DNA from: Flavobacterium gelatinilyticum
GTDB lineage: Bacteria > Bacteroidota > Bacteroidia > Flavobacteriales > Flavobacteriaceae
Direction: 5' to 3'
DNA length: 64,000 nucleotides
Assembly (NCBI RefSeq): GCF_027111295.1
Contig: NZ_CP114287.1
Location: forward strand, 3,596,001-3,660,000
Below, in pieces: positions 24,581-34,086 of this stretch. Made by a program: the position numbers and the translations under genes. Position 1 is the first letter of the stretch, and each line of letters begins with the position of its first letter. The notes beneath the pieces are model-generated. The model was not told where the DNA came from. It worked only from the letters and a program-made list of their open reading frames with translations, and made no database searches.

Positions 24581-24636
24581 GGGACAAAGGTTCTAAGGTG
24601 CAAAGGCTCAAAGGTTTTTACTTTTGAGCCTTTTTT
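24575..24636 (+). repeat. 62-bp direct repeat containing a terminator, copy 1
   Basis: Positions 24575-24636 are identical to 25284-25345. The repeat starts with AACTAAGGG, overlaps the stop codon of the OmpA-like gene, and contains the hairpin AAAGGCTCAAA...TTTTGAGCCTT followed by T residues. This is a rho-independent terminator for the OmpA-like gene. Confidence 0.9.
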
Positions 24637-24718
24637 TTAATTTCAATTCTCAAGTTCCAAATTCCAATTTTGAAAGTACTTGGAATTTTGGATTTTATTA
24701 TTGGAATTTAAAATTTTG

Positions 24719-24726
24719 TAACTTTG
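24719..24726 (+). promoter_or_regulatory. TAnnTTTG -7 element for the toxin-antitoxin pair
   Basis: TAACTTTG lies 20 nt before the antitoxin ATG at 24747. It supports that start over an in-frame ATG at 24624, which lies inside the terminator repeat. The DNA between (24640-24715) is made of TTCCAAATTCCAA-type repeats. Confidence 0.6.
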
Positions 24727-24746
24727 GTTTCTATAAATTAAAAATT

Positions 24747-24998
24747 ATGGGACTTCCAGAATTAAAAGAGAAAATAAAAAATCAATTAGATTTAGCTGAT
24801 GAAAGAGTTCTTCGAATTGTTTCTTCCGTATTTGATAATTATTTAAATGAAGTAGTTTCGTATGATGCGAAAGGAAATCCTGTGACATTAACTAATTATC
24901 ATAACAAAGTAGAAGAAGGTTTAGACGATATTAAATACAATCGAATAATTTCAAGTGAAGATTTGTCGAGAGAAATGAAAGATTGGGATAATGAATAA
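24747..24998 (+). CDS. Antitoxin of a ParE/RelE-type module
   Basis: The 83-residue acidic helical protein lies directly upstream of a RelE/ParE-type toxin and overlaps it by 8 nt. The C-terminal half (YNRIISSEDLSREMKDWDNE) is acidic and probably unfolded when free, as expected for the toxin-neutralising tail. The N-terminal half (LPELKEKIKNQLDLADERVLRIV) would form the dimer/DNA-binding part. I infer the role mainly from position and size; the family is not a classical one I can name with certainty. Confidence 0.7.
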   Translation: MGLPELKEKIKNQLDLADERVLRIVSSVFDNYLNEVVSYDAKGNPVTLTNYHNKVEEGLDDIKYNRIISSEDLSREMKDWDNE

Positions 24999-25284
24999 AC
25001 TAACAGTTTTTTGGACAGAAAATGCAAAATTGGATTTGAAGGAAATTTATTTTGAGCTTAAAAATAAATATTCGAAAGAAACCGCTTTAAAAGTTAGAGA
25101 TGAATTGTTTAATAGTGCAAATAATATCGTTTTTGCTGAACAATTTCAGCTTGATGAATATAGAATTGATTGTCGTCGAATTGTGGTAAGAAATTTTAAA
25201 ATTCTATATCAAATCAAAGATGATTCTGTTTTCATTGTTAGGATTTTTAATACGTTTCAAAATCCATTAAAAAGCTTAAAATGA
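24991..25284 (+). CDS. ParE/RelE-family toxin
   Basis: The 97-residue basic protein has the RelE/ParE fold pattern: FWTENAKLDLKEIYFEL at the N-terminus, a helix pair, then YRIDCRRIVVRNFKILYQI and SVFIVRIFNTFQNP. ParE proteins poison DNA gyrase and RelE proteins cut mRNA on ribosomes; which applies here cannot be read from the sequence. It is translated from an ATG overlapping the antitoxin stop. The stop codon touches copy 2 of the terminator repeat. The pair looks inserted as one unit behind the OmpA-like gene. Confidence 0.82.
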   Translation: MNKLTVFWTENAKLDLKEIYFELKNKYSKETALKVRDELFNSANNIVFAEQFQLDEYRIDCRRIVVRNFKILYQIKDDSVFIVRIFNTFQNPLKSLK

Positions 25285-26629: not shown

Positions 26630-28258
26630 TTATAAATTCAAAACCTGATCTTTAGGATATTTTACTCGGTAACTTATTCTGATTTTCTTGGTTTCATTTG
26701 GCTTTAGTTTTAACTGCCAGGTCAAAATTCCTGTTTCTGAATTTACTTTTGCGCTGTCACTTTGCAGTAATTCAACCTCAATATCTTTATTGGTTGTCAA
26801 CGGATATTGATCTTTCAGCAAAAGTTCGACCAATTCTTTTTTGTTATTTCGAACGGTAATGTCGTACGTAAAAGTCTGTTCTTTTTTAGAAGATAAAAAC
26901 TTAGTTCCGGATTTATCTGCTGCTTTTTCGCGTTTGATAGAAACCTTTTTATCGCGTCCCATACTTAAGTTCAAAGTATCGCTGGTTTGATTTGGTTCAA
27001 TAAATGTTTTCCCTACATACATACCTTCAAAAATAATATTTGCTTCGCCTTGTAATAAATTGAATTTGCTGTAATCGGCAATTTCGGCAAGAAGGAAAGC
27101 ATCACTTTCTACCTTTGGAACGGCATAATATTTATACGTTGCCGGAAGTTTAATTTCCTTTAATGAAACACTGTGTATTTTTCCATTAGAAAGAATATCA
27201 TACGGGATATCAATGTCAAAAGCAATATTAAGCTGGTTTTCTGCAACAGTTGTAAAATCAGAAATTGTAGATTCGGCCATAACTGGCGCCGCAACTTCCA
27301 TCTCGTTACTACTTTTCTTGCTCTTCATGGTTCCATAAGCACTTTGTAACTGGTTCATTGCGGCTCTTTGGTTATAGCCATAATTAGCATTGTTTCTCAA
27401 AAACCAAGAACTTAATATCGGTGCCTGATTGTTTTGGTTTGGATAACCGCTGGACAAAGTCAGTTTTACTTTTTTCCAATCAACTCCCGTGTTTTGAATG
27501 ACCTGCGCTTTGTATACCATATTGATTGGTTCATTTACGCTTTCGGTCCTTAAATCGTAAAAAGGCGTCCATGATGCACTTTGTGTTAAATACGAAACCT
27601 CTAAAGGAACCAAACCTGCGGCACTATTCATAACCTGAACAATTAATTTTCCGGATGAAGTTCGTTCTTCTTTATTTGTATCAACTTCAAGTTTATTATT
27701 TAATTTCTGGAGTGTTTCGTTTAGTTTTTTCTGTTTATCGGTTAATGCATTGATATTATTGGCAATTTCGATTTGTTTGCTCTTGTAATAATCCACCATT
27801 TTTATCAATTCGGCTACATTCAATCCTGAATTTGCTCCGGAAATCTGCTGATTTTTATCGAGCAATTGCATGGTTTTGTTTTCAGAATTAATGGTATTGG
27901 TTACTTTTTGGATTTCTTTCTGTACCAAAACAATACTATCATTCACTCTTTTGATTAAAGGCGATTTTGAATCTGTTTCGTATTCAGAAATATAATTATT
28001 CGTAAACTGAACCGAAAGAACCGTCACATTTGCCGGCGCGCCAATCTGAACTGAGCTTTCATTTAAATTAGACGCCACATTTTTTATCACAATTTCGCTT
28101 GTACCTGCCGGCATGGTTATACTGGCTGTCTGGGAAATTTCTGCAGCGTTAAAATATACGGTTGCGGCTTTTACTTTTGCAGTTGTAAATATTGGTTTTT
28201 GTGCATTTGCAAAAGCGCAGATAAAAAATACGATGAATAGAATTGCTTTTTTATTCAT
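26630..28258 (-). CDS. Mucoidy-inhibitor-like (MuiA) DUF4139 protein
   Basis: The 542-residue exported protein has a Sec signal peptide (FIVFFICAFANAQK). A DUF4140 domain follows (residues 25-100, KAATVYFNAAEISQTASI), then a coiled coil (about 105-210) and the DUF4139 beta-rich domain (about 215-542, SYLTQSASWTPFYDLRTES through VELLLKDQYPLTTNKDIEV). The family is named after a regulator of mucoidy but its biochemical role is unknown. It is last in a minus-strand series with the L,D-transpeptidase (59 nt gap) and VWA genes, suggesting envelope-related work in the same transcript. Confidence 0.85.
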   Translation of the reverse strand: MNKKAILFIVFFICAFANAQKPIFTTAKVKAATVYFNAAEISQTASITMPAGTSEIVIKNVASNLNESSVQIGAPANVTVLSVQFTNNYISEYETDSKSPLIKRVNDSIVLVQKEIQKVTNTINSENKTMQLLDKNQQISGANSGLNVAELIKMVDYYKSKQIEIANNINALTDKQKKLNETLQKLNNKLEVDTNKEERTSSGKLIVQVMNSAAGLVPLEVSYLTQSASWTPFYDLRTESVNEPINMVYKAQVIQNTGVDWKKVKLTLSSGYPNQNNQAPILSSWFLRNNANYGYNQRAAMNQLQSAYGTMKSKKSSNEMEVAAPVMAESTISDFTTVAENQLNIAFDIDIPYDILSNGKIHSVSLKEIKLPATYKYYAVPKVESDAFLLAEIADYSKFNLLQGEANIIFEGMYVGKTFIEPNQTSDTLNLSMGRDKKVSIKREKAADKSGTKFLSSKKEQTFTYDITVRNNKKELVELLLKDQYPLTTNKDIEVELLQSDSAKVNSETGILTWQLKLKPNETKKIRISYRVKYPKDQVLNL

Positions 28259-28317: not shown

Positions 28318-28941
28318 TCAATAATACATAACCAAAATGATTTTCTTTTTAGATTTATCGATTAGTTTTTCAAGTACACCAAAAAATTTGTCGTTTACCA
28401 TAGGGCATCCAAGACTGTTGCAGATTGGATAAGGCTGTTCGTCAAACGGAACTTCGGAGTATTTATGAAGGACTATATTTCGGTCAAAAGCATTACTGTT
28501 TGTTTTGTCCAGTCCGTATAATTTGTAAGCTTTTCCAAATGTTCCAAAATAAGAACCTCCAACAGCATATCTGCCCAACGAACTGCAATTTGAATTTTTG
28601 ACATTGCTAAATTTCAGTTTTCCCTGAATTCCTGTTTCGGATCCAGAACCATGCCCGACTAAGCCTTTGTTTAAAAGCTTATTATGTTTTAAATCATAAA
28701 CAAAAAACCGATTTTTTCCAGAATCCATTTTCATATCTAAAAATAACGCAACATCTGAATTGTATTTTGGAGATTTCCCCAAGAATCTCCTGATTTCAGT
28801 GATTTCGCTTTTTAGTTTCTCTTCATAGGAATAAATCGGTTTTGAGGTTTTAGTTTTTATCGTTTTCTCTTTTTTATTTTCGCAGCTTAAGCAGATAAGC
28901 GGAATCGCAGTAAACAGCAGAAAGAAGATTTTCTTTTTCAT
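28318..28941 (-). CDS. L,D-transpeptidase-like lipoprotein
   Basis: The 207-residue protein has a lipoprotein signal peptide (FTAIPLICLSCENKK). Its C-terminal half matches the murein L,D-transpeptidase catalytic family: RNIVLHKYS (His159) and SLGCPMV (Cys179) supply the catalytic dyad, and GRYAVGGSYFGTFGKAYKL precedes them. It would form or edit peptidoglycan or lipoprotein cross-links in the periplasm. It starts 8 nt after the VWA gene and is surely co-transcribed with it. Confidence 0.85.
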   Translation of the reverse strand: MKKKIFFLLFTAIPLICLSCENKKEKTIKTKTSKPIYSYEEKLKSEITEIRRFLGKSPKYNSDVALFLDMKMDSGKNRFFVYDLKHNKLLNKGLVGHGSGSETGIQGKLKFSNVKNSNCSSLGRYAVGGSYFGTFGKAYKLYGLDKTNSNAFDRNIVLHKYSEVPFDEQPYPICNSLGCPMVNDKFFGVLEKLIDKSKKKIILVMYY

Positions 28942-28949
28942 TTAGATTC

Positions 28950-30110
28950 TTATTTTTCAACAGTATAACCTTTCACTTTTGCAAAAGCCATAATCGAAGA
29001 ATTGATCGTGTTTCCTAAATCGTCCTGAGTTTTGGTTTTTTTAGCTTCGGTATCAATATATTGCTGACGTTTTTTTGCCAAAACGCTGATTTCTTTCTGA
29101 ATCGTTTCTCTTTCTTTTTTCTTTTCAGTTACAATTGCCTGAATTTCGGCTGTAGATTTATCTTTAAGTTCTGCAGGTAATTCTTCTTTTTGAATTTTTG
29201 CAATTGCATTGGCATCATTTTTTACTTTATCGACCAAGTCCCAGCTTTCGTTTTTGTAAACAGCTTTCGATTTACTCACGGCGCGATCTGTATAATTAGA
29301 AGCCGAAACTCTTTTGGCATTTTGATCCTGTACAGCCTGATTTCTTTTCTTTTCCAAACCTTTTGAGCCGTAATTTATGTACGTTTTGTTTATTTTTTCA
29401 TCGCATTTAGCGATTTCATCGTCATATGGCGTTGCGATATATTGGACAGCTCGGTCAGAATCAATATTGAAATATTTACCTTTTCCACGATCAGCGCCAT
29501 CTTTCCAGAAAATATTAATTCCTTCAGTTTTGTTGCCGCAGAAAATAGTATTGACATAAATATCATTTTTAAGGGCATCGCTGATGGCTTCTTTGTAATT
29601 AATTTTTCCCTGATTGAATCCTTCATTTTCGGCAATGTAAATCAGTTTCATACTATTGTTTTCTGATGACCATTTTAATTCTTTGGTCGCATCCTGAATT
29701 ACAGCGCCGCAATATTCGCTTCCGCCGTTGGTTCTAAGGGCAAATAATTTCTCTGATATCAAATCGAGATCTTGCGATAATGCCGTTACCTGTCTGATGT
29801 AATTGGATTTTTCAGATAAACCGTCATTTCCGTATTCGTACAAAGAAATTTCGATGTCCGGCGTTTTTCCATCGTATTTTAAAGTAGTCAAAGTATTGAC
29901 AATATTCCACAATCTCGATTTTGCCTGATCGATTAATCCGTCCATACTATTGGAAGTATCCAGCAAAAGTGCCACCTGAATTTTGGTTGTGGCAGCAGAA
30001 TCTGGTTTTTCGGTCTCCACTTTTTTTTGAGGTTTTGCATTCGATGAATTACAACTTGCCAATGATATTGTAAGGGCAAAAAGTGCTGAGATAAAAAGAT
30101 TTGATTTCAT
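28950..30110 (-). CDS. VWA-domain lipoprotein
   Basis: The 386-residue protein has a lipoprotein signal peptide (ALTISLASCNSSN). A von Willebrand factor A domain follows (about residues 45-240) with the MIDAS motif DTSNSMDGL and a later TNGGSEYCGAV, then a Lys/Glu-rich coiled coil to the C-terminus (KKKERETIQKEISVLAKKRQ). It probably mediates metal-dependent protein contacts in the periplasm. The ATG at 30110 gives a proper signal peptide; an upstream ATG at 30143 would overlap the promoter. It carries a -7 element at 30141-30148 and a candidate LytTR operator at 30180-30210. Confidence 0.82.
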   Translation of the reverse strand: MKSNLFISALFALTISLASCNSSNAKPQKKVETEKPDSAATTKIQVALLLDTSNSMDGLIDQAKSRLWNIVNTLTTLKYDGKTPDIEISLYEYGNDGLSEKSNYIRQVTALSQDLDLISEKLFALRTNGGSEYCGAVIQDATKELKWSSENNSMKLIYIAENEGFNQGKINYKEAISDALKNDIYVNTIFCGNKTEGINIFWKDGADRGKGKYFNIDSDRAVQYIATPYDDEIAKCDEKINKTYINYGSKGLEKKRNQAVQDQNAKRVSASNYTDRAVSKSKAVYKNESWDLVDKVKNDANAIAKIQKEELPAELKDKSTAEIQAIVTEKKKERETIQKEISVLAKKRQQYIDTEAKKTKTQDDLGNTINSSIMAFAKVKGYTVEK

Positions 30111-30140: not shown

Positions 30141-30148
30141 CAAACTTA
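30141..30148 (-). promoter_or_regulatory. TAnnTTTG -7 element for the VWA operon
   Basis: The minus strand reads TAAGTTTG, 31 nt before the VWA ATG. No clear -33 TTTG at normal spacing is seen, as expected of an activator-dependent promoter. Confidence 0.65.
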
Positions 30149-30179
30149 AAAACTAAAAAAGCTCGTTTTTTGGACAAAT

Positions 30180-30210
30180 GGTGAAACGGTCTTTTGACTT
30201 GGTGAAACAG
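30180..30210 (-). promoter_or_regulatory. Candidate LytTR-family operator, site 1
   Basis: GGTGAAACGG at 30180-30189 and GGTGAAACAG at 30201-30210 form a direct repeat with 21-bp start-to-start spacing, two helical turns, as in known LytTR-regulator sites. It aligns at 23 of 31 positions with the site at 31436-31466 and shares the 15-mer TTTGACTTGGTGAAA. Its near edge is 32 bp from the -7 element, identical to the other site. The likely binder is the LytTR regulator encoded at 33337-34086. Confidence 0.7.
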
Positions 30211-30287
30211 TTCCCGGATTAACTAGTTGGGCTTGTTATTTGTAAAAATCTATAGAACATTGATGAAACGGATTTACTATCGCAAAA

Positions 30288-30361
30288 ACGCAGATAAAAA
30301 CTGATTTAAAGAATCTGTATAAATCCGCGTCTTCGTGATAACGAATCTGATTTATCTGCGT
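30288..30361. repeat. Palindromic intergenic element downstream of the SIMPL gene
   Basis: ACGCAGATAAA at 30288-30298 is the exact reverse complement of 30351-30361. The interior holds further CGCAAAA / TCCGCGTCTTCG words of the intergenic repeat family. It is just after the SIMPL gene on the minus strand and may end its transcript. Confidence 0.55.
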
Positions 30362-30399
30362 CAAAATATTGTGTTTTTAATCATGCCCAAGAGATAAGA

Positions 30400-31371
30400 T
30401 TAATAGGTTGGCTTTGGTGAGTTGATATTTAACGGTTTCAGATCACCATTTGGCGTTATCAAAATATACTCTCTATCAGTTTTTGCACCTTGTTTCTTTT
30501 CTTTTTGTCTGTTAATGAAAATCTTAACTTCATACTGCACCTGAATAACGGGCTCTAAAACAGCGGGATTAATAATAAAATCAAATTCTTTGTTGAATAT
30601 TGGCTGGTAATAAAGCGTAGTCGATTTGCTGACCTGATTAACATTAGCTGATTTTTTTAAGTTTAAAGAAGAGCTGTTGTAAGCTTCATACGATTTGTAC
30701 ATCTCTACAGGAAGGTTTACAATGTAATCGTCGGCAATTCTTTTTTCGGCGTTTGTAAATGTTTCGCCCAAAAGAACTTCATAATTTTTAATTTTTTCCT
30801 GAATGAGCAGTCTGGCTTTGTTCATCATTTCTTTTTTGATGGTTTCCAGTGCATTAGAGAAATAATCAACACGAACTAAATCGTAAATTTCATTGTTGCT
30901 TAAAATCGAAATAAAGTCATTCAGCTGGTTAGGATCAGTGAATTTTATATGAATGTTTTTCTTTAGTTCAAATCCTGCGGGAACTTCATTATAGGTTTTT
31001 CGGCTGAAAACTTTTTTCTCAGCTTCATATTCATAAACCGGAACAAACGAAATCATATCGACAAAAGTTTCAACGCCTTTTTTAAGTTTAATTTCACTAA
31101 GAACTTTATCTATCCTCTGATCTAGTAATTCATTAACTTCTTTGGTTGTTTTACCGGTTTGTGTTGTACTGAAAATGGCGGTATAGGTATCTGCTTTTAC
31201 ATTGGCAAGTCCTTTCACACTTGCTAGAATACCTTCTTCAGACGGAAAATTGACGTTGATTGTGTTTTTGGCATAATACGGCTGATTCTGATAATTGACA
31301 TTTCCCGAAGCTTGTGCCATTATAAATTGAGAAAACATCAGGATTAAAAATGAGAAGGATAATTTTTTCAT
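30400..31371 (-). CDS. SIMPL-domain (DUF541-like) exported protein
   Basis: The 323-residue protein has a Sec signal peptide (SFLILMFSQFIMAQAS). The mature part contains ANVKADTYTAIFSTTQTGKT, EVNELLDQRIDKVLSEIKL and FTDPNQLNDFISIL, matching the SIMPL/DUF541 pattern of an N-terminal beta strand then paired alpha/beta units. SIMPL proteins are periplasmic, form multimers and have no settled function. It has its own promoter (-7 at 31397-31404) and a candidate LytTR operator at 31436-31466, and is divergent from the histidine kinase gene. Confidence 0.65.
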   Translation of the reverse strand: MKKLSFSFLILMFSQFIMAQASGNVNYQNQPYYAKNTINVNFPSEEGILASVKGLANVKADTYTAIFSTTQTGKTTKEVNELLDQRIDKVLSEIKLKKGVETFVDMISFVPVYEYEAEKKVFSRKTYNEVPAGFELKKNIHIKFTDPNQLNDFISILSNNEIYDLVRVDYFSNALETIKKEMMNKARLLIQEKIKNYEVLLGETFTNAEKRIADDYIVNLPVEMYKSYEAYNSSSLNLKKSANVNQVSKSTTLYYQPIFNKEFDFIINPAVLEPVIQVQYEVKIFINRQKEKKQGAKTDREYILITPNGDLKPLNINSPKPTY

Positions 31372-31396
31372 GATTTTGGTTTTTAAGATTATGAGG

Positions 31397-31404
31397 CAAA
31401 TGTA
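31397..31404 (-). promoter_or_regulatory. TAnnTTTG -7 element for the SIMPL gene
   Basis: The minus strand reads TACATTTG, 26 nt before the ATG, without a clear -33 box. It is exactly 32 bp from the candidate operator, as at the VWA promoter. Confidence 0.65.
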
Positions 31405-31435
31405 TCGATCGAAAAAACGTATTTTTGAGAGAATG

Positions 31436-31466
31436 GGTCAACGGGCTGTTTGACTTGGTGAAAGAT
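31436..31466 (-). promoter_or_regulatory. Candidate LytTR-family operator, site 2
   Basis: GGTCAACGGG at 31436-31445 and GGTGAAAGAT at 31457-31466 repeat with 21-bp spacing. The core TTTGACTTGGTGAAA is identical to site 1. It lies in the gap between the divergent SIMPL and kinase genes, so it could also autoregulate the kinase-regulator operon, whose GTG start is 54 nt away. Confidence 0.7.
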
Positions 31467-31519
31467 ATAGGATAGGAATCTGAAATTAAGTTACTTTACA
31501 CTTTCTAAATAACAGAGTT

Positions 31520-33340
31520 GTGAAACATTATTTATCAATTATTTTCGGTTTGGTTTTTTTAGCGTTTTTGTCTCCGCAGAGAATAACTGCGCAGGCATTG
31601 CCGGAAAAAAGCGAAAAAAAGAGTAACGCCAAAATCAGTAAAGCGGCTGATGAATTGTCGAAATCATTAAATGAAAATGATGAAAGCCAAATTGCACGAA
31701 ACTATGAAAAGCTGGCAAATGAATTTTTGAATAAAGGAGAGAATGCAAAAGCCGAAGAATATTATAAAAGGGCTTTAAATAGTTACACCAAATTAAAACT
31801 AACCGAAGATAAAACCCGTGTAACGCGAAGTTTGGCGCAAGCGCAGGAAAATCAGAAAAAGTTTGACTCGGCGATTTCTAATTATGAAACGGCGGGTTCA
31901 TTGACAAAAGATGCTGTTGAAGAAAAAATAAATCTGAACGACGCAAACCGACTTAAGAATCAAGCCAATCCGGCGAGTCAGACCAATTATGTCGATTCGA
32001 ATATTGAATTACTCAAAAAAGAAAAGAAATCCGAAGAAATAAGCAAAGCATATGTACAAAAAGCACAAAATTCTTTGGACTTAAAAGACAAAGAAGTCGC
32101 GATAGAAAGCTATAAAAAAGCGCTAAAATATTCGAAAGACAAACCGGAAGAAGTCATAAAAATCAAAAATGAAATCGCAAAAGTTTACGTTGAAGACAAT
32201 CAGTTTGATAAAGCACTTGCGATTAACGAAAAACTACTTGCCGAAGCGAAAACAAATAATGATTATACAACCGAAATAAAACAGCTTCAGTCTTTGGCTT
32301 CGCTTTATTTTGAAAAAAAAGAAGCCGAAAAAGCCATTTCATCTCTAAAAGAAGCGTACGATTTATCATTTCAAAAAGGAAATTCGGCAGAAGCCAAAAA
32401 GAGTTTGTCTTCCTTGATTAAATATTATAAAACTAAAGGCGAAGACAAAGAAAGCATGGCTTTGTACGAACAGTTTTTTGATAATTTTGAAAAGTTAATC
32501 AAATCTGACACGACTTTGATTGATGCCAAAACGTTCCAAATTACCGAAGATAAAATTCGTCAGCTTGAAAAAGAAAAAGATCTGAAAGACGAATTGATCT
32601 CAAAGAAAAACTCATTTAATTATTTTCTTTTAGGATCAATTGGTTTGTTGCTGCTTTTGTTTTTCTTTATTGTGAAGGCGTTGTATTCTATCAGAATCAA
32701 AAACAAAGAAATCGCTTTGCAGTCTTTGCGTCGTGAAATGAATCCGCATTTTATTTTTAATAGTTTAAACAGCGTCAATCAGTTTATTGCAGAAAATAAA
32801 GAACTCGAAGCCAATAAATATCTGACTTCATATTCGAATTTGATGCGAAATATGATGGAAAACTCCAATAAAGATTTTATTTCGCTCGATAAAGAAGTAG
32901 AACAATTAAAAAAATATCTTGATTTGGAACATCTTCGCTTTCAGGATAAATTCGACTTTGAAATTGTCGTCGATGAGGTTCTTGATACTGAAAGAGTTTT
33001 TGTTCCGAATATGATTATGCAGCCGCACTTGGAAAACTCAATTTGGCACGGACTGCGTTATCTGGACAAAAAAGGATTTTTATCTTTAAGATTCGAATAC
33101 AAAAACGGAAAAATAAACGTCGTTATCGAAGACAACGGAATTGGTTTGACCAAAAGCCGTGAGCTTAAAACCGCAAATCAAAAAATCTACGAATCACGCG
33201 GTTTGAACAATACAAAAGAACGAATTGATCTTTTGAACGAATTGTATAAAAAAGAAATCTCATTTACAATTTCAGAAAAAGAAGTACCGGAATCCGGTAC
33301 AATTGTTCAAATTGTTTTTCCATTAATTGATACAATATGA
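31520..33340 (+). CDS. TPR-sensor histidine kinase (LytS/YehU-type His_kinase)
   Basis: The 606-residue protein has a cleavable-type signal peptide (LVFLAFLSPQRITAQA), a sensor region made of TPR-like helix pairs (about residues 40-330), a coiled coil, one transmembrane helix (about 367-392, LLGSIGLLLLLFFFIVKAL) and a cytoplasmic kinase. The phospho-acceptor His410 is in REMNPHFIFNSLNSVNQF and the ATP lid is VVIEDNGIGL. The sensor should be periplasmic. The GTG at 31520 is the start: no ATG gives the signal peptide. Its stop overlaps the LytTR gene start by 4 nt (ATGA), so the pair is translationally coupled. Confidence 0.88.
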   Translation: MKHYLSIIFGLVFLAFLSPQRITAQALPEKSEKKSNAKISKAADELSKSLNENDESQIARNYEKLANEFLNKGENAKAEEYYKRALNSYTKLKLTEDKTRVTRSLAQAQENQKKFDSAISNYETAGSLTKDAVEEKINLNDANRLKNQANPASQTNYVDSNIELLKKEKKSEEISKAYVQKAQNSLDLKDKEVAIESYKKALKYSKDKPEEVIKIKNEIAKVYVEDNQFDKALAINEKLLAEAKTNNDYTTEIKQLQSLASLYFEKKEAEKAISSLKEAYDLSFQKGNSAEAKKSLSSLIKYYKTKGEDKESMALYEQFFDNFEKLIKSDTTLIDAKTFQITEDKIRQLEKEKDLKDELISKKNSFNYFLLGSIGLLLLLFFFIVKALYSIRIKNKEIALQSLRREMNPHFIFNSLNSVNQFIAENKELEANKYLTSYSNLMRNMMENSNKDFISLDKEVEQLKKYLDLEHLRFQDKFDFEIVVDEVLDTERVFVPNMIMQPHLENSIWHGLRYLDKKGFLSLRFEYKNGKINVVIEDNGIGLTKSRELKTANQKIYESRGLNNTKERIDLLNELYKKEISFTISEKEVPESGTIVQIVFPLIDTI

Positions 33341-34086
33341 TGACTTTACAGAAAATAAAAAGCGTAATTGTCGAAGACGAATTGGCCGCGCGCGAAGTGC
33401 TTAAAAATTATTTGAGCAAATATTGTCCGCAGGTTGAGGTTGTGGGCGAGGCGCAAAACATTAAAGAAGCCGTTCCGTTGTTGCACGAAATTAAACCGCA
33501 ATTGGTTTTTCTGGATGTCGAAATGCCTTTTGGGAATGCTTTTGATGTTCTCGAAGCTTGCAAAGATTTGCAATTTGAAACCATTTTTGTAACCGCTTTT
33601 TCTGAATATTCGCTTCGGGCTTTAAACCAGAGTGCGGCGTATTATCTTTTAAAACCAATAAGTATAGAAGAATTGATTATTGCGGTAAATAAGGTGCAGC
33701 ACCAGATTATGAATCATGAAATCTTTAACCGAAATAAAATCATCGTCGAAAATTTTCATGAACAAAAACCAGAAAAACAAAAGGTGATTCTGCCCACTTT
33801 GGAAGGTTTTGAAGTTGTAAAAATGGAAGATATTGTACGCTTGCGCGGAAACGGGAATTTTACTGATTTATATCTGAATAATGGAAACAAAAAAATGGTC
33901 TGTCGATTTTTAAAACACTTTTCAGAAATTCTGCCATTGCCTTTTATTCGGGTTCATAAATCGCATATCATTAATTTGAATTGCGTAAAAGCGTATAACA
34001 AAGGCGGCATCGTTACACTAAATGACGGAATTGAAATTGAAGTCTCTCCAACTTATAAAGAAGAGTTTTTGAAGAATTTTAAATAA
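33337..34086 (+). CDS. LytTR-family response regulator
   Basis: The 249-residue protein has a receiver domain (residues 8-125; VEDE acidic pair, phospho-acceptor Asp60 in VFLDVEMPFG, Lys in YYLLKPISI) and a C-terminal LytTR DNA-binding domain (about 145-249, with VRLRGNGNFTDLYL and FIRVHKSHIINLN). LytTR proteins bind imperfect direct repeats about two helical turns apart. Its cognate kinase is the overlapping upstream gene. The nearest matching DNA sites are those at 30180-30210 and 31436-31466. Confidence 0.93.
   Translation: MMTLQKIKSVIVEDELAAREVLKNYLSKYCPQVEVVGEAQNIKEAVPLLHEIKPQLVFLDVEMPFGNAFDVLEACKDLQFETIFVTAFSEYSLRALNQSAAYYLLKPISIEELIIAVNKVQHQIMNHEIFNRNKIIVENFHEQKPEKQKVILPTLEGFEVVKMEDIVRLRGNGNFTDLYLNNGNKKMVCRFLKHFSEILPLPFIRVHKSHIINLNCVKAYNKGGIVTLNDGIEIEVSPTYKEEFLKNFK

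Follow-up and report, generated by a model that had tools for sequence, protein, structure and literature searches.

The HdrRM and BrsRM systems of Streptococcus mutans have 9-bp direct repeats separated by a 12-bp spacer, located upstream of the promoter, and they are autoregulated; a functional repeat that diverges from the consensus is also described for the LytTR Regulatory Systems (PMC6193735). In Table 3 of the same paper, LRS-like operons of Bacteroides thetaiotaomicron and B. ovatus have direct repeats predicted before TATCTTTG-type -7 elements, and these repeats are thought to autoregulate the LytTR operon, a role that is a prediction only (PMC6193735). LytTR repeats predicted in two Bacteroides operons are already in print, and the new part of the locus described here is a candidate operator common to divergent promoters. 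No published account of this operator was found in a search of the open-access literature.

The two sites described below share with HdrRM and BrsRM the 9-bp repeats, the 12-bp spacer and the place before a promoter; from the repeat to the -10 element there are about 27-33 bp in those systems, as summed here, and 30-33 bp separate the repeat from the -7 element at this locus (PMC6193735). The streptococcal systems differ in having a membrane inhibitor protein instead of a kinase-response regulator pair, one promoter per repeat instead of one repeat between two divergent promoters, and -35/-10 promoters instead of the -7 elements of Bacteroidota (PMC6193735). The Bacteroides operons resemble the present locus in that the repeats closely precede a -7 element in Bacteroidia, but their repeats are 11 bp long, with an 11-bp spacer and another sequence, and their LytTR regulators are membrane-bound and accompanied by NfeD/DUF2154 proteins with no kinase; a divergent promoter, present here, is not mentioned in the part of that account dealing with them (PMC6193735). 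AgrA of Staphylococcus aureus is, like the regulator studied here, a two-component LytTR regulator; it acts on its own operon and on a divergent target, as the present regulator would, and the agr P2 and P3 core promoters are suboptimal as well (PMC4227749). In agr each promoter comes with its own binding repeats and the target is a regulatory RNA; here one repeat pair was found between two -7 elements and the candidate targets are envelope genes (PMC4227749). SilA of Streptococcus is also a LytTR response regulator with direct repeats upstream of the promoters that it activates; it differs in its 10-bp repeats, its 11-bp spacer and its role in peptide quorum sensing (PMC2766830). What the analysis of this locus yields is a matrix for the sites, the geometry of their promoters, a candidate regulator and a small predicted local regulon, all testable in a single laboratory strain. 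It would link little-studied envelope proteins (MuiA, SIMPL and a VWA-like protein together with an L,D-transpeptidase) to a two-component system of their own, and it raises the question by what means a polar operator could act on promoters that point in opposite directions.

Sites, promoters and genes in the window

The features of the locus are collected in Table 1; the window is the whole stretch of 64,000 nucleotides that was analysed. The first-pass annotation had described two matched 31-bp sites, and these were recovered when the sequence was re-read: the 31-mers at 30180-30210 and 31436-31466 are identical at 23 of 31 bases in direct reading, and both sites have 9-bp direct repeats with a 12-bp spacer, which puts the repeat starts 21 bp from each other, the left half-site of operator 2 being degenerate; relatives keep this geometry. 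The 15-mer TTTGACTTGGTGAAA is indeed common to both 31-mers, but taken alone it is not significant. Repeated 15-mers are common in the window, with 674 identical pairs at distances above 60 bp (a count that includes overlapping words from longer repeats), and the 15-mer alone was therefore rejected as evidence. The generic LytTR half-site consensus is [TA][AC][CA]GTTN[AG][TG]. The LytTR geometry claimed for the sites was found, but their half-sites agree with this consensus at 13-14 of 18 positions, no better than random stretches of the window (background mode 13), and the consensus was rejected as support because the match is at background level. A part of the spacer, TTTTGACT (30192-30200 and its relatives), and the T of the right half that follows it carry more than 1 bit per base, a conservation that exceeds what two repeats explain.

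Table 1. Features of the locus and their positions in the window
Feature	Position	Strand	Remarks
MuiA family protein	26630..28258	-	DUF4139/DUF4140, TIGR02231
L,D-transpeptidase (YkuD_2)	28318..28941	-	Pfam; 8 bp after VWA gene
VWA-like gene	28950..30110	-	ATG at 30110; DxSxS-type motif by eye
-7 element of VWA promoter	30141..30148	-	TAAGTTTG; 32 bp from 30180, start to start
Operator 1 (candidate)	30179..30208	-	direct repeat with identical halves, TGGTGAAAC-N12-TGGTGAAAC (plus-strand reading); precedes VWA-LDT-MuiA series
SIMPL (DUF541) gene	30400..31371	-	Pfam
-7 element of SIMPL promoter	31397..31404	-	TACATTTG; index 32 from operator 2 on minus strand
Operator 2 (candidate)	31435..31464	.	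GGGTCAACG-N12-TGGTGAAAG; between SIMPL and kinase gene
-7-like element of kinase-regulator promoter	31491..31498	+	TTACTTTA; 26 nt after operator 2
Sensor kinase	31520..33340	+	TPR repeats and His_kinase (PF06580)
LytTR response regulator	33337..34086	+	Response_reg and LytTR; proposed binder of both operators

In F. psychrophilum, sigma-A has TAnnTTTG as its consensus -7 box (PMC9723704). Each site had been placed 32 bp before such an element and in the same orientation, and TAAGTTTG and TACATTTG were both found at index 32. Weak -33 elements had been reported before; on inspection by eye, no TTG -33 is visible at the usual distance from the envelope-side -7 element at either site of the window, and promoters of this kind fit activation. 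Site 2 stands in front of the SIMPL gene as had been said, and the earlier description is corrected in that this site is also placed for the kinase-regulator operon: a TTACTTTAC-type element is located on the plus side, 26 nt after the right repeat. This kinase-side promoter is an addition to the first-pass annotation, which did not report one.

The family matches YkuD_2, MuiA (DUF4139/TIGR02231), SIMPL, His_kinase and LytTR were confirmed. The VWA-like protein had no match in Pfam or NCBIfam at E <= 1e-3, and its label rests on the motif read by eye; its open reading frame begins in the ORF list at TTG 30143, upstream of the ATG. The kinase gene has a GTG start in the window's ORF list. Elsewhere in the window, a small gene pair occupies 24624-25284; its second member matches ParE_toxin (PF05016), the first has no Pfam match, and the pair is likely a type II toxin-antitoxin module.

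The regulator gene, placed earlier at 1.9 kb from the sites, starts 1.87 kb from site 2, and its LytTR assignment is confirmed by Pfam. Its product has a receiver and a LytTR domain (PF00072 and PF04397, both above cut-off). In 21 aligned regulators, with a mean column identity of 88%, D60 is invariant and, from its place, is taken as the phospho-acceptor; a receiver with a putative phospho-Asp followed by a C-terminal LytTR domain is the make-up of response regulators of the AgrA/ComE type. The AlphaFold model has a pLDDT of 73 and is weak in parts of the receiver and the linker. Its LytTR part resembles AgrA structures (4xqj, TM 0.83; 3bs1, TM 0.79; on target), while full-length ComE (4cbv) gave the top E-value with a TM of only 0.35-0.38, which indicates that the domain arrangement in the model is not reliable. 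The equivalogs BtsR (96 bits against an NCBIfam cut-off of 246) and LytR (84 bits against 375) were rejected. In a coevolution study of F. johnsoniae, each of five lines had a mutation in FJOH_RS09515, a LytTR regulator (lines 2 and 5), or in FJOH_RS09520, a histidine kinase with the neighbouring gene number (lines 1, 3 and 4) (PMC10197871).

Promoter geometry in related loci

Conservation in related species, which had been proposed as a check, was found in 81 of 81 regulator loci, namely the best 80 of 577 confirmed loci and the window; scored with an operator matrix, every locus has at least one site and the total is 112. The best 80 comprise 77 loci titled Flavobacterium, one from a Flavobacteriales MAG, and those of Bacteroides sp. 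519 and Prevotella sp. 10(H). On the envelope side, TAnnTTTG occurs at one offset in 102 of the 112 sites of these 81 loci, TAnnTTTn at this main offset in 8 and TAnnTTTG one base further in 2, and within the 110 nt scanned TAnnTTTG was seen at no other offset. The fixed position just upstream of a promoter that is expected of a LytTR operator was thus found at all 112 sites, at two adjacent offsets.

The kinase-side element was searched as T[AT][AT]?CTTT[AG] in a 20-nt stretch. It was present at 80 of the 81 kinase-proximal sites of the same loci (best 80 of 577 and the window), the one exception (L076) reading TTATTTTAC, and at 0 of the 31 sites that are not kinase-proximal. For the calculation of information content in a fixed register, the 81 loci were reduced to 38 non-redundant ones (<85% RR DNA identity). 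In this set the mean was 1.40 bits per base for the site, 1.28 and 1.39 for the -7 regions of the envelope and kinase sides, 0.62 and 0.73 for the stretches between the site and the -7 elements, and 0.31 and 0.16 for the flanks outside. The 31 non-kinase sites, with redundancy kept, had 1.68 bits at the envelope-side -7 element and 0.18 at the corresponding position opposite. Conservation of the kinase-side element is thus confined to sites next to the kinase, which is the geometry of autoregulation.

Occurrence of the sites with the regulator

A whole-genome scan had also been proposed earlier. Allowing at most 2 mismatches, the full operator pattern (GGTSAAMSNNNNNNTTSACTTGGTRAA) matched the own genome of 5.83 Mb only at the two sites of the locus, both with 0 mismatches, and the reversed control gave 0 matches. 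The 15-mer, also with up to 2 mismatches, had 25 matches in this genome against 50 for its reversed control, and therefore only the full operator is informative.

The sample of the genus consisted of 299 genomes drawn evenly from a larger group, and the regulator, called at E <= 1e-85, was present in 62 of them. A pattern site with no more than 2 mismatches was located within 6 kb of the regulator in 60 of the 62, and in 57 at no more than 1 mismatch. The other two have weaker copies recognized by the operator matrix, with scores of 15.2 (G078) and 9.2 (G256); the G256 copy lies between VWA and kinase on a different contig from the regulator piece, which is found at the end of its own contig. 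Among the 237 genomes without the regulator, two (G258 and G146) had one match each at 1 mismatch and none had an exact one. A search for the VWA gene at E <= 1e-60 was positive in 59 of the 299 genomes. In the three that have it without the regulator (G090, G166 and G222), the best matrix scores in the 16 kb around VWA were at background level, with -10.7, -8.5 and -10.7. For training, the matrix drew on 60 distinct strong sites from the same loci that were later scored, and the other genus genomes share species with these training loci, whereas the genomes of other families and the three VWA-only genomes were kept out of matrix building. A matrix match at 15659 in L084 (score 7.1) was under the thresholds and was also excluded by its place.

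Two off-register control patterns, with spacers one base wrong (N7, N12), were almost without matches: one of them, stricter than the full pattern, had 3 in the 299 genomes, and the second, run on 11 genomes, had none within 6 kb of the regulator. Away from the regulator, the full pattern had 8 matches in the 62 regulator genomes, all with 2 mismatches and one of them in G078, and the 237 other genomes had 44 (42 with 2 mismatches and 2 with 1). A looser pattern gave 4 to 12 further scattered matches per genome in 11 genomes, against 0 to 11 for the reversed controls. No further regulon members came to light elsewhere; distant matches are not in excess in regulator genomes, and the predicted regulon looks local.

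In the class, the regulator was found in 12 of 395 sampled genomes and is therefore patchy. Three of the 12 are genus members with sites (G000, G060 and G278) and nine are outside the genus. A copy of the operator was found near the regulator in all 12, weak in G526 and G319 and degenerate by eye in G374. In six of the nine outside the genus (G515, G403, G607, G526, G319 and G373) the operator precedes the kinase. Its two sides have -7 elements at 27-28 and 25-26, and the matrix scores, highest in G515 (46), fall to 11.5 in G319 and 9.8 in G526. A second operator (score 8.8) precedes the SIMPL gene that comes before VWA in G319; the copy before VWA in G373 has a background score of -14.7, yet it is at the right place and has TAGCTTTG. 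In G407 and G524 the operator is upstream of a gene for a 556-571-aa protein on the strand of kinase and regulator, with CATCTTTG at the usual offset by eye; 352 bp separate this gene from the kinase in G524, and the degenerate copy of G374 is at the same place. The predicted operator thus occurs with the regulator in several families of the class.

Candidate mode of control and its alternatives

The best reading overall, and a very likely one, is that the LytTR response regulator of the locus uses both sites as operators. The earlier claim of LytTR operators before the VWA-LDT-MuiA series and SIMPL is supported by geometry, genome uniqueness, co-occurrence with the regulator gene, lack of the site in the three VWA-only genomes and fixed promoter spacing. 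Binding of the regulator to both sites is highly probable; activation of the envelope genes by the bound protein is probable, and autoregulation, of either sign, is likely. A regulator dimer would bind each direct repeat, with one LytTR domain per 9-bp repeat. As the repeat is located just upstream of the missing -33 box, the bound regulator would recruit RNA polymerase to the TAnnTTTG promoters, operator 1 acting on VWA-LDT-MuiA and operator 2 on SIMPL. Operator 2, at 26 bp from the divergent kinase-regulator -7 element, would allow the system to control itself as well, probably positively. The direct repeat is polar and the dimer would be reversed toward the kinase promoter, so activating both sides would need an extra mechanism.

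This polarity is also a reason to consider that the regulator binds but represses at least one side, either because operator 2 represses the kinase while the envelope genes are activated or because everything is repressed until a signal arrives. A TTG-like -33 next to the right half was seen by eye on the kinase side of many single-site loci, and the kinase promoter may for this reason not need an activator. However, the envelope promoters have no visible -33, as fits activation, and there is no overlap between the right repeat and the kinase -7 element; repression is a less likely alternative. It is improbable that the sites are used by another DNA-binding protein and not by the neighbouring LytTR regulator. 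Such a protein would agree with half-sites that do not follow the generic LytTR consensus and with a spacer of which part is conserved about as well as the half-sites, and co-occurrence concerns linked DNA, so that another regulator tied to the cluster fits too. Against it, 60 of the 62 regulator genomes have a nearby pattern site and 2 a weaker matrix site, the VWA-only genomes have none (0 of 3), and in G407, G524 and, less clearly, G374 the site heads a same-strand series containing the regulator itself.

That the similarity arose by chance or by a recent duplication without function has a negligible probability. The many repeated 15-mers of the window would favour it, but the spacing is fixed at 112 of 112 sites (81 loci, the best 80 of 577 and the window), conservation is above that of the flanks in the 38 non-redundant loci, and the off-register patterns found almost nothing in the 299 genomes and nothing near the regulator in 11.

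Chances are evenly balanced that one polar operator simultaneously drives both divergent promoters, with unequal fixed spacings of 30 and 26 bp from the repeats, as a portable socket. Genes for VWA, SIMPL, a 434-aa cyclase-like protein or tiny lipoprotein-like proteins would then have been placed behind the operator, in some cases together with a second operator lacking a promoter on the kinase side. An open frame was found behind 111 of the 112 sites (81 loci, the best 80 of 577 and the window); behind the remaining one, L024:6103, there is none of at least 60 aa. Of these frames, 62 match VWA, 28 SIMPL, one LDT and one MuiA, while 19 have a match to none of the four. The 19 are 8 for proteins of 430-443 aa, 6 lipoprotein-like ones of 67-68 aa, 2 of 246 aa that are SIMPL-like by eye and 3 of 173-184 aa. 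The first downstream gene varies, and the operator and its spacing are constant.

The one protein tested of the eight of 430-443 aa, encoded at L067:4725-6029, has 434 aa and a squalene-hopene-cyclase-like, weakly TED-like domain. An extra operator at L087:3774 precedes a MuiA-like paralogue that is 30% identical to the MuiA of the window, and two successive operators in L094 (5697 and 6110) each stand before a closely similar 67-aa lipoprotein-like gene. The VWA gene of G284 (C1:4231348-4232445) has two in-frame stops, and its operator matches at 0 mismatches.
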